Shown piece by piece: positions 419 to 64,000 of a DNA stretch of 64,000 bases. The notes below the pieces were generated by a model, which saw only the letters and a program-made list of their open reading frames with translations, was not told where the DNA came from and did not search any database. The translations under genes were made by a program, and so were the position numbers. Origin of the DNA: Singulisphaera sp. GP187 (GTDB taxonomy: Bacteria; Planctomycetota; Planctomycetia; Isosphaerales; Isosphaeraceae); the NCBI RefSeq assembly GCF_900129635.1, contig NZ_FSRB01000003.1:434001-498000 (forward strand), given 5' to 3'. How positions within the stretch are numbered: position 1 is the stretch's first letter; every line of letters starts with the position of its first letter.

Positions 419-817
419 ATGGCCATCACTCTGACGATACGCGACGAAGGGGTCGGCGGCGTGCCAGTGCAGGAGCAGACGCTGGACGTCCCCGCCGAGC
501 GGATGACGGCCCGGGAGCTAATCCGGAGCCGCGTCTACCAGGAAGTGCAGGACTACAACCTTAGAATGACAGGTCCGTTCCTCGGGCTCGTCCGTCCCGA
601 AAGCGCTGAGCGGGCGCTCAACCGCGCGGGGGCGACGGCCCGGTTCCGGCCGGTCGACTGGAAGAAACAGTTCGAGCGGGCGGTCGAGGCGTTCGAGGCC
701 AACCAGATCCTCCTGCTCGTGGACGACCGGCAGGTCGATTCGCTCGACGAGGAGGTGACTCTCCGCGAGGGTTCCGTGGCGACTTTCCTGCGTCTGACCC
801 TGCTGGTGGGTGGCTGA
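419..817 (+). CDS. Ubiquitin-like (beta-grasp) small protein ending in Gly-Gly
   Basis: A 132-residue protein with no family name that I recognise. Its layout resembles ubiquitin: a first strand (residues 2-9), a second strand (about 19-23), a helix (about 29-44), an insertion of some 50 residues, a strand at 96-101 (ILLLVD), then TLREGSVATFLRLTLLVGG up to the last residue. The end compares well with the ubiquitin tail (ESTLHLVLRLRGG), including a terminal Gly-Gly with no extra residues. It lies 31 bp upstream of a DUF4132 gene and is probably in the same operon. A Gly-Gly end would suit activation by an E1-like enzyme, but no such partner is visible nearby; the ThiF/MoeB gene at 63837 is 63 kb away and probably unrelated. 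No clear ribosome-binding site precedes the ATG. The coding call is sound; the fold is inferred from the pattern only. Confidence 0.7.
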   Translation: MAITLTIRDEGVGGVPVQEQTLDVPAERMTARELIRSRVYQEVQDYNLRMTGPFLGLVRPESAERALNRAGATARFRPVDWKKQFERAVEAFEANQILLLVDDRQVDSLDEEVTLREGSVATFLRLTLLVGG

Positions 818-848
818 CGCGAGATGAGGCGATCCAGGGAGTCGGGCG

Positions 849-3496
849 ATGCCGAAGAAGAAGGCGGCGGAGCAGGTGGCGACGCCCGTCGAGGGCGCGA
901 CCGCGGGCGAGCGCATTGACGCCTTGTTCGCATTCCGGGCGACGTGCAAAACGCTGTCGAGCCTGGCGGCCGATCAATACAAGGAGGGGCGGGCGGTCCT
1001 CAAGGCCGACCCCGAGACGAAGGCGGCGATCGTCCGCGAGATTGCTTCCCGGTTGGAGCCGGGAGGCATGCGGGGGAAGGGCGATGCGACAAGCAACGCT
1101 TCGGGCAAGCTCCTCGAAGACTTGCTGATCGAGACCCTCTACTGGTCGAGGACCGACGAGCCGCCGCGGCGGACTACGTAGCCGGGCTCGCGAAGCCGAC
1201 CCGACTTCTCTACCTGATTTACGTGGTTCAGGACATCATCGGCGATCTCGCCGCCAAGCGCGAGCTTTCCCCGGCCACCCGCGAGGCTGTCCTCCGGATG
1301 GCCTCGATGATCCGCGCGCAGGTCGAGTCCCGCAAGAAGTGGCCGATCTACTTCCACGAGGACGAGCGCGAGGAATGGCTCGAAAACCTGGAGATGGCGC
1401 TAGCCGTCGGTATCCGCCGGCAGTTGGACCCGGGCGAGGCCTGGTCCGACGCCGCGATCGCCGAGATCGAGGGGTTGCCGCCTGGCCCGACCTGGAGCGT
1501 CTGGCTCACATTGGCGGCCCATTGTAAGACGCTCCCGAAGTCCGGCAAGACGACCGAGAAGTGGCTTGCCGCGGCCCGCGAGTTGGTCGAGCGGATCGGC
1601 CCCGACGCCTTCAGACGGGCCGTCCTCCGCTGGTTCCCGCTGGTTGACCGGCCGAGGACCGCACCCCACCCGAACCAGAACTCCTGGGACCCGGACTGGA
1701 CAAACCTGATCCTCCCCGGCCACATCAACGTCCTCCGTGGGCTGGTCTTCCTGTGCGCGGGCCTCGACGACAGGGAGGTCGCCCGGGCGCTGGCGAAGTT
1801 GGCGATCAGCTCGTATCGCAAGCTCCCCGGCGTCGGGCCCAGGCTGGTCTCGCTCGGCAACGCCTGCGTGAGCGTGCTCGGGACGCTGCCGGGGATCGAG
1901 GCGGTTGGCCAGCTCGCCATGCTCAAGACGCGGGTCAAGTTCGGCACGGCGCTGAAGGAAATCGAGAAGGCATTCGACGCCGCCGCGAAGCGTGAAAACC
2001 TCCCGCGCGAGGAGATCGGGGAACTGGGCGTCCCGACCTATGGGATGGAGGACGTCGGCCGCCGCGTCGAGATCTTCGGCGAGTACCGCGCCGAGATGGC
2101 GGCCGACGCACACGGCGACGGCTTCTCGATCCACTGGAGCAAGGCCGACAGTTCGCCGCTTAAGTCGGTGCCCGCGTCGGTCAAAAAGGACCACGCCGAG
2201 GAGTGGAAAGAGCTGCAAGCCACAGCCAAGGACGCCGGCATGATGCTGACCTCCCGGCGCGATGCGCTCGACGCGTCGTACCTCGCCCGCAAGACCTGGA
2301 GCCTCGACGACTGGCGCGAGCGTTACCTCGACCACCCGCTGGTCGGCGTGGTCGCCCGCCGGCTGATCTGGACCTTCACCGACGGTAAGACCTCGCAAGA
2401 CGGGCTGTTCCACAACGGCAGGCTCGTCGACCGCGACGGCCAGGCGCTCAAGCCACCCGGTGGGTCGACGACGGTCGGCCTCTGGCACCCGATCGGCCGC
2501 CCGGTCGACGAGGTGCTCGCCTGGCGCGACCGCCTGGAGCGGCTGGGGGTCAGGCAGCCATTCAAGCAGGCCCACCGCGAGGTCTACCTGCTGGCCGACG
2601 CCGAACGCCGGACGGGGTCCTACTCAAACCGGTTCGCCGCCCACCTCCTCAAGCAACACCAGTTCCACGCCCACTGCGCCGCCCGCGGGTGGAAGAACCG
2701 GCTGAGGCTAGGTGTGGACGACTCCTTCCCGCCCGCGACCCGCCCCTTGTCCGAATGGGGCCTCCGCGCGGAGTTCTGGGTCGAGGGGGTCGGCGATGAG
2801 TTCACCGAGTCGTCCGCCTACCTCTACCTGACCACGGACCAGGTCAGGTTCTACCCGACGGACGCCGCGCAGGCGAAGGCGCACGCCTCGGGGGGTGGCT
2901 ATCAATTCTGGAACGGCGAGGACCGGCCGACCCCGCTGGAGGAGGTGCCGCCGCTGGCCTTCTCGGAGGTCATGCGGGACGTCGACCTGTTCGTCGGCGT
3001 GGCGAGTGTCGGGAATGACCCGAGCTGGGCCGACGGCGGCGCGGGCGGCCAGCACCGCGACTACTAGGAGCGGTTCAGCTTCGGCACCCTCTCGGCCACC
3101 GCGCAGACCCGCAAGGAGGCGCTCGAGAGGATCGTCCCCCGTCTCAAGATTGCCGACCGCTGTTGTTTCACTGATAAGTTCTTGGTCGTCCGGGGCGACC
3201 TGCGGACCTACAAGATCCACCTGGGCAGCGGCAACATCCTGATAGAGCCGAACGACCAGTACCTCTGCATCGTCCCCAAGCAAACGGCCTCGGCCCGGCC
3301 CGACGGCGGAGTCTTCCTCCCATTCGAGGGGGACGCGGTCCTCTCGGTCGTCCTGAGCAAGGCCTTGATGCTCGCCGACGACCGGAAGATCAAAGACGAG
3401 ACGATCACCAGCCAGTTCGATGCAACTGGGTCAACTGACAGGGAGGAAGTAGCCAGGCACTTGATCAGGGAGGGCTGGAAAATTCGGAGAAGCTGA
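849..3496 (+). pseudogene. DUF4132 (MolR-type) protein gene, broken by a frameshift and an in-frame TAG
   Basis: DUF4132 proteins are large proteins of unknown biochemical role; E. coli MolR is the usual reference. The start at 849 has a good site (aggga, 7-8 bases upstream). The first frame is open to a TAG at 1179-1181, but family-like sequence continues in another frame from about 1140 (LVEDRRAAAADYVAGL), so one base change near 1131-1145 splits the gene. The DUF4132 core is clear at about 2560-2700 (PFKQAHREVYLL, then YSNRFAAHLLKQHQFHA). A second lesion is a TAG at 3065-3067 (HRDY-stop-ERFSFG), where a TGG Trp codon is a likely ancestor; the frame then runs on through DLRTYKIHLGSGNILIEPND to a stop at 3494. 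The last ~48 bases lie inside a dispersed repeat, so the natural C-terminus may be altered. It is probably a decayed gene; sequencing errors could explain either lesion. Confidence 0.8.
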
Positions 3497-3572
3497 ACAC
3501 TTGATTGCAGACACCGTTGGACTATCGAGGTCCCCCGAGTTACCTCCTTTGGGAACCTGGCCACCGACTCGA
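3449..3572 (+). repeat. Dispersed ~124-bp repeat, copy 1
   Basis: Imperfect repeat shared with 5099-5220 and 7199-7322. It begins with agccaggcac and ends with cctggccaccgactcga. The core caccgttggac and the stretch tcccccgagt are well conserved. The ends are partly complementary (gccaggc versus a degenerate cctggc). This copy overlaps the tail of the broken DUF4132 gene and lies 3' of it. Confidence 0.85.
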
Positions 3573-4813: not shown

Positions 4814-5098
4814 CTCCACGAAAGTGGCGACCAGACAGGGGCGCTACCAGGGGCGCCCCGCCGAAGTCCGGGACGTTCCGGCGGGCATCGGGCAAGGTCA
4901 CAGGATCCAAAGTGGCCAGAAACTTCAGACCATTGCAAACATCCCTAACTGTCAATCCATTCTATAGATTCCGATTAAAATCTTCCCCATAAGACACGTT
5001 ACAATACCCCACATAACCCAAAAGACGTCAATGTTTTCGAACATTAAATCTATCAAATATACCGAGACACTAAATATATTTAGCGGCAGAGCAAACAC
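4814..5098. other. Intergenic stretch with an AT-rich island
   Basis: No gene is supported. From about 4935 to 5090 base composition drops sharply to AT-rich (for example gattaaaatcttcc and aaatatattta), unlike the surrounding GC-rich DNA. The island ends at the start of repeat copy 2. Confidence 0.6.
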
Positions 5099-5220
5099 AG
5101 CCAGGCACTTGACCAGTTAAGGCTGAAAGGTACAGAGAAGCTGGACACTTGACTGCAGCCACCGTTCGACGATCCAGGTCCCCGAGTCACCCGATTTGGG
5201 TGCCTGGCACCGATTGGACG
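5099..5220 (+). repeat. Dispersed ~124-bp repeat, copy 2
   Basis: Same family as 3449-3572 and 7199-7322 and in the same orientation. It is the most diverged in the core (caccgttcgac) but has the best terminal inverted repeat: gccaggcac near the left end pairs perfectly with gtgcctggc near the right end. It lies 3' of the retropepsin gene and 145 bp before the ankyrin gene. Confidence 0.85.
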
Positions 5221-7062: not shown

Positions 7063-7198
7063 GGTGCGGCGGGTCACGTTCAATCGATCCAGCGGCGCCA
7101 CGGTCAGAATTCCCGGCACGGTGGGCGCTCTCGGCATCGAGTCATTGGATGTCGCGACACGAACCGTGAAACTGGCGGCCCTGGACGCGACTGAGCGA
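7063..7198. other. Spacer between ankyrin gene and repeat copy 3
   Basis: The helicase frame is open through this stretch, but the translated residues match nothing in that family. With repeat copy 3 and the 122 bases after it, this forms a 382-bp gap without a supported gene (7063-7444), which must hold the helicase promoter. Confidence 0.45.
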
Positions 7199-7322
7199 GT
7201 AGCCAGGCACTTTACCAGGGAAGACTGGGAGTTCCAGAGAAGCGGGACGCTTGACTGCAGGCACCGTTGGACGATCCAAGTCCCCCGAGTCACCTCCTTT
7301 GGGAGCCTGGCCACCGACTCGA
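7199..7322 (+). repeat. Dispersed ~124-bp repeat, copy 3
   Basis: Very close to copy 1: both share agccaggcact or its near match, caccgttggac, tcccccgagt, acctcctttggga and ctggccaccgactcga. Ends are complementary (gccaggc/gcctggc), and an internal ttgga-cga-tccaa forms a small hairpin. It lies 3' of the ankyrin gene and upstream of lhr, and is the third such copy in the same orientation. Confidence 0.88.
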
Positions 7323-7444: not shown

Positions 7445-10400
7445 ATGTCAAGCAACGATGGCCTGGACGGCTTCCTGCCGGTTGTGGCCACCTGGTTTCG
7501 AACCACGTTCGGGGCGCCCACCCCTCCCCAGCAATTCGGTTGGCCGGCGATCGCTGAAGGGCGAAACACACTCATCTTCGCCCCCACCGGGTCGGGCAAG
7601 ACGCTGGCGGCGTTCCTGGCCTGCCTCGACCATCTCTGGCGCACCCCAAGGCGGGCGCCCGGGGCGAGAATCCTCTACATCTCGCCTCTGAAAGCCCTGA
7701 ACCATGACGTCTATCGCAATCTCCAGATGCCGCTCGAGGGGATCGTGGAGACGGCTCGAGCAGCCGAGACCGAACTGGCTCCGCTCTCGATCGCGGTCCG
7801 GAGCGGCGACACCTCCTCGGCCGACCGCCAAAAGCTGGTCCGCAAGCCTCCCGATATCCTGATTACCACGCCCGAATCGCTGCACCTGATGCTGACGAGC
7901 CGAGCCCGCGAGACCTTACGGTCACTCTCTCATGTCATCATCGATGAAATTCACGCCCTTTGCCCCAACAAGCGAGGGGTCTTCCTCGCCCTCTTGCTGG
8001 AACGCCTGGAGGCGATCAACCCCGACGGCTTCGTCCGCATCGGCCTCTCGGCCACCCAGCGCCCGCTCGATGAAGTCGCGCGATACCTCGGGGGGTGCCG
8101 GATCATCCGTGGTCCCGGCACGAAGACCCGCCTCGTACCAAGGCCGGTAACGATCATCGACACGGGACACCGCAAGGAGCTCGACCTCCAAATTCTCGTG
8201 CCGTTCGAACGGCCTGGCCCCGTGGCCCCGGGCACCACCTGGCCGGCCATCGAACGCCGGCTCCTCGAGCTTATTCGCGCGCACCGCTCGACGATCATTT
8301 TCGCCAACAACCGGCGGGTCGTGGAGCGGCTGACCGCGCATCTCAACGAGCATGAGGACGGCCCCAAGACGACCGCAACTGCGTTGGTGCGATCGCATCA
8401 TGGCAGCCTGAGCCAGGAGGAACGGCGGAATACCGAAGAGGCCTTGAAGGGAGGCGAGCTGCAAGCCGTGGTCGCCACGGCGTCGCTGGAACTCGGGATC
8501 GACATGGGGGCGGTCGACCTGGTCTGTCAGGTCGAATCGCCCGGCAGTGTGGCACGGGGGCTTCAGCGGGTCGGCCGGGCGGGTCACGTGGTCGGCCGAG
8601 TCAGCAAGGGGCGGCTCATCGCCAAAACGGCGAGCGACCTCCTGGAATCGGCCGCGCTCTGCCGCGCCATGGTCGGCGGCGCGGTCGAGTCATTGCGAGT
8701 GCCGAACGGCTGTCTCGACGTGCTCGCCCAGCAGGTGGTCGCCTGCGTGGCGATGGATCGCTGGGACGTCCCCGCCCTTTTCGACCTGGTCCGTGGCGCT
8801 TATCCCTATGGCAACCTGGCCCCGTCCGCGTTCGACAGCGTGCTTCGAATGGTCGCGGGCCGGTTCCCCACCGAGACCTTCCGCGACCTCCGTGCCCGGG
8901 TGAGTTGGGACCGAGTCCACAACCGCTTGCACGCTCTGCCCGGCAGCGCGCGGCTCGCGGTGACCAGTGGCGGGACGATTCCGGACACCGGACAGTACCC
9001 CGTCTATCTTGGTAACGAAGGTCCACGGCTGGGCGAGCTCGACGAGGAGTTTGTCTTCGAGCGTCGGGTGGGGGAAACCTTCGTGCTCGGAACCGCCACC
9101 TGGCGGATCGAGGCGATCGAGACCCACCGCGTCGTCGTGGCCAGAGCCGAGGGGCAAGCCGCGATGATGCCCTTCTGGCGCGGCGAGGATTCGGCACGCA
9201 CCCCCGAGCTCGGCGAAGCCGTCGGCGCCCTGAGCCGCGAGCTGGTCGAGCGGCTCGATGACCCGGGGCTCGTCGCCTGGCTTCAGGCCGACTGTCATCT
9301 CGAGCCGGCCGCCGCGGAGTCATTGCGCGATCACGTCGCGCGGCAGGTCAGGGTCGTCGGTGCCGCCCCCGACGACCGCACCGTGATTATCGAGTCGTTC
9401 CGAGATCCAGCCGGCGAGATGGGAGTGGCCGTACTCACCCCGTTCGGCGGCAAGCTTCACCAGGCGTTGAAACTCGCGCTTCAAGGTCGGTTGCGGGAGC
9501 GGCTAGGGATCAGCCTGTCCTGTCTTCACGCAGACGACGGGATCTTGATTCGCCTTCCCCAGAACGACGAGCCTCCCCTCGACGTATTCGACGGCCTGAC
9601 TTCCGAACTCGCCGAGCGCCTGATCCGCGAGGAGTTGGGGGATAGCGCCTTGTTCGGCCTCCGGTTTCGCCAGAACGCCGGCCGGGCGCTGCTGATGCCG
9701 CGCCCCGACCCATCCAAGCGAACGCCCCTCTGGCTCCAGCGGCTTCGGGCCAAGGACCTGCTGCAAGTCGTCCGGCAGCTCCCTGACTTCCCGATCGTGG
9801 TCGAGACCTACCGCGAATGCCTCAATGACGACCTCGATTTGCCCCGCCTCCGGCTCTTTCTCGACCGCGTGGCCTCGGGGACGATTCGGGTGGTGGCGCG
9901 CCGTGGTGAGATCGCGTCGCCGTTCGCCACCGACCTGATCTTTCGCTTCACCTCGCAATTCCTCTATCAGTGGGACGAACCCCGCCACGCCGAGCGGCAG
10001 CCGGGCCGAGCGGCGGTGGACGAGGGACTTCTCGATCCCTTGCTCGACGCGGCGAGCCACGCCCAATGGCTCGACCCGAACGCGATCGGTCAGGTTGAGA
10101 GCCGGCTCCGCGAGATCGGTCGGCCCCCGCGCACGGTCGACGAGATGGCCGAAACCTTGCGACGCCTGGGGGACCTCGCGGCGGGCGACTTGAGCGGCCC
10201 GATGCTTGGTTTCCTGGTCGAGCTTCAAGCGCAAGGGAGAGCCGCGGAAATCGAGTTGGCGAGAACGCTCGAGCCCACGCGCTGGATCAGCGCGGAGGAA
10301 TCGCCCCTTTATGAGTCGGCCTTCGCCCACGAACCCGACGAGGCCGCGCAGGAGACGATTGTCCGGCGGTTTCTCGGCACCCACGCCCTCGTCGGCCTCG

Positions 10401-63836: not shown

Positions 63837-64000
63837 ATGAACACACCTCCGATCGACCTGCTCGGCGAACGGCCCGCCGCTTCGCCGCTCACCGCCGCCG
63901 AAATTCAACGCTACGCGCGGCATCTCATCATGCCCGAAGTCGCCATGCAGGGTCAGCAGAGGCTCAAGGCCTCCAAGGTCCTCTGCATCGGCACCGGGGG
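63837..64000 (+). CDS. MoeB/ThiF-type E1-like adenylyltransferase (start only)
   Basis: The first 54 codons of a protein whose 3' end lies beyond the window. RYARHLIMPEVAMQGQQRLKASKVLCIGTGG is the N-terminus of ThiF/MoeB/HesA adenylyltransferases, with the start of the Rossmann GxGG loop. Family members activate the Gly-Gly end of ThiS or MoaD. An N-terminal extension of ~24 residues precedes this. Cofactor identity cannot be settled from the fragment. Confidence 0.85.
   Translation, partial: MNTPPIDLLGERPAASPLTAAEIQRYARHLIMPEVAMQGQQRLKASKVLCIGTG

Follow-up and report, generated by a model that had tools for sequence, protein, structure and literature searches.

A conserved bacterial gene pair: a small protein with a terminal Gly-Gly and a DUF4132-DUF7737 protein

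Genes and features at the locus

Within the window, by which we mean the whole stretch of 64,000 nucleotides analysed here from the 10.7 Mb genome of Singulisphaera sp. GP187, a short gene for a Gly-Gly-tailed protein is followed on the same strand by a broken DUF4132 gene (Table 1). An initial annotation had described a 132-residue product terminating exactly at ...LRLTLLVGG, and this was borne out when the open reading frame was read through to its stop codon. Relatives of the small gene occur across genomes, one of them, from another genus, being 77% identical at the protein level, and comparison with the nearest relative gives a dN of 0.16 and a dS of 0.47 (dN/dS about 0.34). Taken together, these observations indicate that the gene is genuine, coding, and constrained. 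No relative of the window protein was found in Pfam, NCBIfam, PADLOC, or the PDB, and the family as a whole has no entry in Pfam, NCBIfam, or PADLOC.

The same annotation placed a DUF4132 gene next in line. The domain assignment stands (Pfam E 2e-47, with DUF7737 at the end of the gene at E 6e-42), but the gene is broken, which had passed unremarked. A frameshift lies between about 1130 and 1181, and homology to the intact protein of a relative (locus L018) runs in one frame over 849-1163 and in another over 1130-3418 (tblastn). No second DUF7737 gene was found in the Singulisphaera genome. The window therefore looks to contain an intact small gene whose partner either has been broken recently or has been misassembled. 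The interspersed repeat that covers the 3' end of the partner gene has 18 matches in this genome. Two further copies, at 5091-5220 and 7193-7322, are 62% and 84% like the copy listed in Table 1, and copies of the repeat are located at or close to the ends of genes.

Table 1. Coordinates of features in the window and, in the last row, of a palindrome in loci from Deinococcus replicons
Feature	Position	Strand	Remarks
Small Gly-Gly-tailed protein gene	419..817	+	132 aa; MoaD/ubiquitin-like by predicted fold
C-terminal Gly-Gly codons (Gly131-Gly132)	809..814	+	TGA stop 815-817 directly after
DUF4132 gene, 5' fragment	849..1181	+	First frame; stop after frameshift; tblastn with intact L018 protein 849-1163, frame 3
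DUF4132 gene, main part	1130..3064	+	Second frame (ORF 944-3067); DUF4132 domain about 2159-2692
In-frame TAG interrupting DUF4132 gene	3065..3067	+	ORF reading and tblastn with intact L018 protein
DUF4132 gene, 3' part	3068..3496	+	DUF7737 about 3101-3415; last residues unlike relatives
Interspersed repeat copy, roughly 130 bp	3443..3572	+	Covers DUF4132 gene 3' end; begins within last codons
TTATGCTATTTACATAA before small gene	L073 7897-7913; L074 7915-7931; L077 7857-7873		3 of 4 Deinococcus replicons

Breadth of the family and conservation of the Gly-Gly tail

Relatives of the small protein were identified in 13 of 45 genomes from the same taxonomic family, in 61 of 398 genomes sampled from the class, and in 20 of 392 sampled from the phylum. 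The family is present in Planctomycetota, Deinococcota, Bacteroidota, Actinomycetota, and Alphaproteobacteria, and hence in at least five phyla. For example, the small gene and a DUF4132 gene form a pair on replicons of four Deinococcus species, Bacteroides finegoldii, Nonomuraea gerenzanensis, and Novosphingobium humi, where the small proteins end in LTALAGG (Deinococcus), VPLVGG (Nonomuraea), TPLKGG (Novosphingobium), and SGRLW (Bacteroides). A phage or viral origin of the small gene was considered and rejected, as it has no relatives among viral contigs or phages.

When 89 genes of the family were translated up to their stop codons, 79 were found to end exactly in Gly-Gly, and the remainder in AGA (three), LSG, SGRLW, VAG, VCC, DRP, or degenerate sequence (two). 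Lack of conservation at this position, which the initial annotation had named as grounds for abandoning its proposal, was thus not observed, and the tail is not a chance feature. The gene tree, built from few columns and with many forks open, divides the family into two main groups. Members of the first end mostly in VGG and are paired with a short DUF4132-DUF7737 protein; those of the second end mostly in AGG and are paired with a DUF5724-DUF4132-DUF7737 protein of 1600-1800 aa. Every gene of the short clade that has a partner ends exactly in VGG, KGG, or MGG. The last glycine is missing despite the presence of a partner in the long group only, in four lineages (AGA twice, LSG, and SGRLW), which implies that a free Gly-Gly carboxylate is not always required. 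In the Bacteroides finegoldii gene (L075, 7980-8396), which has a DUF4132 partner, the chain extends beyond the glycine position. Another locus (L028) holds tandem members at 9180-9584 and 9974-10375 that end in CC and DRP rather than GG, in a genome without DUF7737.

Pairing with DUF4132-DUF7737 genes

A DUF4132 gene is the same-strand neighbour of 81 of the 89 small genes, so that the association proposed from the window alone extends to its homologues. The small gene lies upstream in 71 cases and downstream in 10, and the median distance between the two genes is 22 bp; gene order switches yet linkage is kept, which argues for a functional connection over shared descent alone. Across the 398 class genomes, 56 carry both families, five the small protein only, seven DUF7737 only, and 330 neither (Fisher p 3e-54, uncorrected for kinship). 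In the seven genomes with DUF7737 only, the match sits in short frames of 57-216 aa, which can be read as fragments, decayed genes, or contig ends. In all five genomes with the small gene only (G001, G436, G510, G514, and G680), the small gene has lost its Gly-Gly or is a fragment.

The tail itself follows the partner. Of the 81 genes with a DUF4132 neighbour, 76 retain it, compared with three of the eight genes that have no such neighbour (p 3e-4). These three are found at L130, L171, and L072; the genome of the first (G550) has a DUF7737 gene at another place, and the second is truncated by a contig end in a genome that likewise carries DUF7737 elsewhere. Since retention of Gly-Gly follows the presence of the partner, tail and partner appear to be mutually dependent. 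We conclude that the two genes constitute a real, conserved module that had not previously been linked. Our searches found no literature connecting DUF4132 with a Gly-Gly protein, within a coverage of subscription journals that is thin; three papers mention DUF4132 by name.

The partner proteins of seven relatives match both PF13569 and PF24879, as do the fragments in the window, and no WGR domain was detected in any of them. DUF7737 is absent from all 14 control genomes, E. coli included. In several motifs of the DUF4132 region, Lys, Arg, Glu, Asp, and Gln residues are invariant, but no Cys is, which speaks against a ligase that forms thioesters. Among the invariant motifs of the partner are QPFKQ..RE.Y..T..E, RD.DL, and YxIHLGS. 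Sequence searches of the PDB with the DUF4132 profile and with the small-protein profile returned nothing significant, and beyond synteny at the level of the genus no third conserved gene accompanies the pair. As a candidate defence system the module was rejected: the small protein has no PADLOC match, and a long partner gave one weak match to WGR_XIII (E 0.012).

Pairing and co-occurrence of this kind could also reflect a subunit of the DUF4132 protein whose role is purely structural or regulatory, its tail of small residues only packing into a pocket without ever being activated. That four long-clade lineages with a partner can dispense with the last glycine would fit such a subunit, as would the absence of activation enzymes from the module, but the VGG, KGG, or MGG that closes every short-clade protein with a partner is stricter than packing alone usually needs. 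We regard this explanation as somewhat unlikely, albeit the strongest of the alternatives to the reading preferred below.

Predicted fold of the small protein

The small protein likely adopts a beta-grasp fold of the MoaD type, as judged from a sub-threshold profile match and published modelling of an orthologue. A beta-grasp order of strands and helix had been proposed from pattern alone, and AlphaFold models of the window protein and of one relative both present the order strand-strand-helix-(insert)-strand-strand-strand, but at low confidence (pLDDT 41 and 51). In Foldseek searches the first model had MoaD chains (5mpo, 6jc0, and 3rpf) among its top matches, none of them significant (E > 0.9), and the second gave only weak unrelated matches and no MoaD chain. 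The MoaD/ThiS model PF02597 does not match the window protein; its best E-value, 0.17, was obtained for one member of 35.

Plain hhalign comparison of the small-protein profile gave probabilities of 6% for MoaD and 5% for ThiS. Once a block of 43-45 residues between helix 1 and strand 3 was removed, at an excision site chosen by hand, the MoaD profile aligned end to end with scores of 18-25 (6-33%; best 25.4). A scan of excision sites yielded the best MoaD scores when the removed block started at residues 38-56. Controls reached at most 10.9 with 30 column-shuffled MoaD profiles (global mode) and at most 13.2 with 38 windows of real proteins. The ThiS profile remained negative after removal of the insert. 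Models of the Deinococcus radiodurans orthologue, DR_A0165, are described in PMC9650054 as resembling 5MPO, 3PO0 (SAMP1), 1WGK, 1VJK, 1V8C, and 2L52, structures of MoaD, Urm1, or SAMP1 type, and the protein is termed molybdopterin-synthase related there.

The Deinococcus orthologue and the response to DNA damage

In D. radiodurans, DR_A0165 (SEP068184) ends in ...LRLTALAGG and adjoins the long DUF4132 gene DR_A0166, and the two form a pair orthologous to that of the window. The available text of PMC9650054 presents SEP068184, in contrast, as a stress peptide restricted to Deinococcus and without an RDRM site, and in that text the Gly-Gly tail, the pairing with DUF4132, and the wide distribution are not reported. 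It describes a cytoplasmic protein whose level rises after irradiation and peroxide, which binds Trx1 by pull-down, and whose deletion leads to higher peroxide resistance and catalase activity. Both of the published restrictions are contradicted here. Relatives occur in five phyla, and a palindrome of the DdrO-type RDRM, TTATGCTATTTACATAA, is located about 64 bp upstream of the annotated DR_A0165 start. This site is listed in the DdrO map (PMC8533742), and the palindrome is also found in D. psychrotolerans and Deinococcus sp. D7000. Furthermore, DR_A0166 is induced by mitomycin C in an IrrE-dependent manner (PMC8533742). The DR_A0165-DR_A0166 operon belongs to the DdrO (DNA-damage) regulon.

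SEP068184 has been proposed to act as a small stress regulator through binding to thioredoxin, which would involve no Gly-Gly chemistry. The pull-down of Trx1 and the peroxide-resistant mutant (PMC9650054) are what such a regulator would produce, but among the annotated loci that were read a thioredoxin gene adjoins in D. radiodurans only, the conserved neighbour is DUF4132, and the claim of Deinococcus specificity is wrong. As an account of the family, this is very improbable.

Activating enzymes and the question of conjugation

The initial annotation had asked whether E1-like or JAB protease genes lie nearby, and here the answer was negative. Across 88 loci (1.27 Mb), tblastn with seven ThiF and JAB sequences gave no match outside the queries' own loci, and Pfam models applied to 29 genomes detected no E1-like or JAB gene near the pair. 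The module thus encodes no E1-like enzyme for activation and no JAB protease for deconjugation. Genes of the ThiF family were present elsewhere in all 29 genomes tested, which says little given that 12 of 14 control genomes also have them. The absence of a linked E1 is usual for MoaD as well, with MoeB rarely sitting in the MoaD operon (Iyer 2006), and a single E1 can serve several carriers (PMC3227635).

These observations bear on a further explanation, in which the small protein is a protein modifier, its Gly-Gly activated by an E1 encoded in trans and the DUF4132 protein acting as ligase, main target, or receptor. An exactly terminal Gly-Gly in 79 of 89 genes, a ThiF-family E1 in every genome tested, and precedents for conjugation in archaeal SAMP and bacterial CBASS (PMC2948915 and PMC10097602) point in this direction. 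Against it stand the lack of a linked E1 or JAB gene, the presence of ThiF in most controls as well, the missing invariant Cys in the partner, and a report that DR_A0165 with a C-terminal tag still pulled down the 157 proteins obtained with an N-terminal tag (PMC9650054). Covalent tagging by the small protein is possible, but we consider the modifier explanation unlikely, more so than that of a structural subunit.

Proposed role and relation to known systems

Our findings suggest an undescribed pair of carrier or modifier type, which in Deinococcus is turned on by DNA damage. The reading that we prefer, and hold with about even confidence, is that of a MoaD-like Gly-Gly carrier or subunit dedicated to the DUF4132-DUF7737 protein and, should it be activated, served by an E1 encoded in trans. 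The small protein would be a beta-grasp protein resembling MoaD, carry a helical insert, and leave its Gly-Gly tail free. MoaD serves MoaE, and ThiS serves ThiG; by analogy, the tail most likely docks in the DUF4132-DUF7737 protein and would be used there, either to donate an activated carboxylate (adenylate or thiocarboxylate) or, by docking, to complete the active site. Activation, if needed, may be carried out by a ThiF/MoeB-type E1 encoded at another locus. In Deinococcus the pair is part of the DdrO regulon, and the small protein influences peroxide resistance. Several observations count against this reading: the low-confidence models and the missing PF02597 match, the four lineages that have a partner but not the last glycine, the lack of an invariant Cys in the partner, the success of D. 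radiodurans pull-downs with a C-terminal tag on the protein, and the broken partner gene in the window.

We know of no activity for DUF4132 proteins, which are widespread, and a Gly-Gly tail that is kept with the partner and lost without it offers a direct handle on their function. An unexplained stress peptide and its DdrO-regulated operon are now tied to a general bacterial module, and the question is open to direct testing in the tractable D. radiodurans. A broader proposal is more tentative, and we think it rather less than evenly probable: DUF4132-DUF7737 proteins may form a new class of enzymes dependent on ubiquitin-like proteins, within a two-gene pathway of Gly-Gly carrier or conjugation type that is induced by stress, is distinct from ThiS, MoaD, SAMP, CBASS, and Pup, extends over at least five phyla, and is part of the Deinococcus response to DNA damage.

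Several known systems share features with the module. MoaD and ThiS (PF02597) have the same exact C-terminal Gly-Gly, a gene beside one partner, and an E1 that is usually encoded apart, and the match to the MoaD profile is end to end after the insert is removed; in contrast to them, the small protein has no PF02597 match, is about 132 aa long rather than about 80, has additional residues between helix 1 and strand 3, and is partnered by DUF4132-DUF7737 instead of MoaE or ThiG. Proteins of the MolR/YehI type (WGR-DUF4132) share the DUF4132 domain, whereas the seven partners scanned have no WGR and carry DUF7737. Pup and UBact are mostly disordered and end in GGQ, GGE, or similar, unlike the small protein, which ends at GG and has no Pfam Pup match. 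YukD/EsaB is ubiquitin-like, has no Gly-Gly, and belongs to the ESX locus; the small protein differs in its Gly-Gly and DUF4132 neighbours and in having no Pfam YukD match.

Type II CBASS and the E1/E2/JAB operons (Iyer 2006) resemble the module in a Gly-Gly component of probable beta-grasp type and differ from it in that no E1 or JAB gene lies in or near the small-gene module. Two other observations concern genes of these families in Singulisphaera sp. GP187. The start of a ThiF/MoeB-family gene is found at the very end of the window (63912-64000) and beyond it (G000:C3:497912-498615), where the match is split across two frames. On the same contig, at G000:C3:102000-110000 (L177), a ThiF-like gene is followed by a JAB-domain gene with a spacing that is similar in many related genomes; this is a separate locus and possibly an E1-JAB operon of known type.
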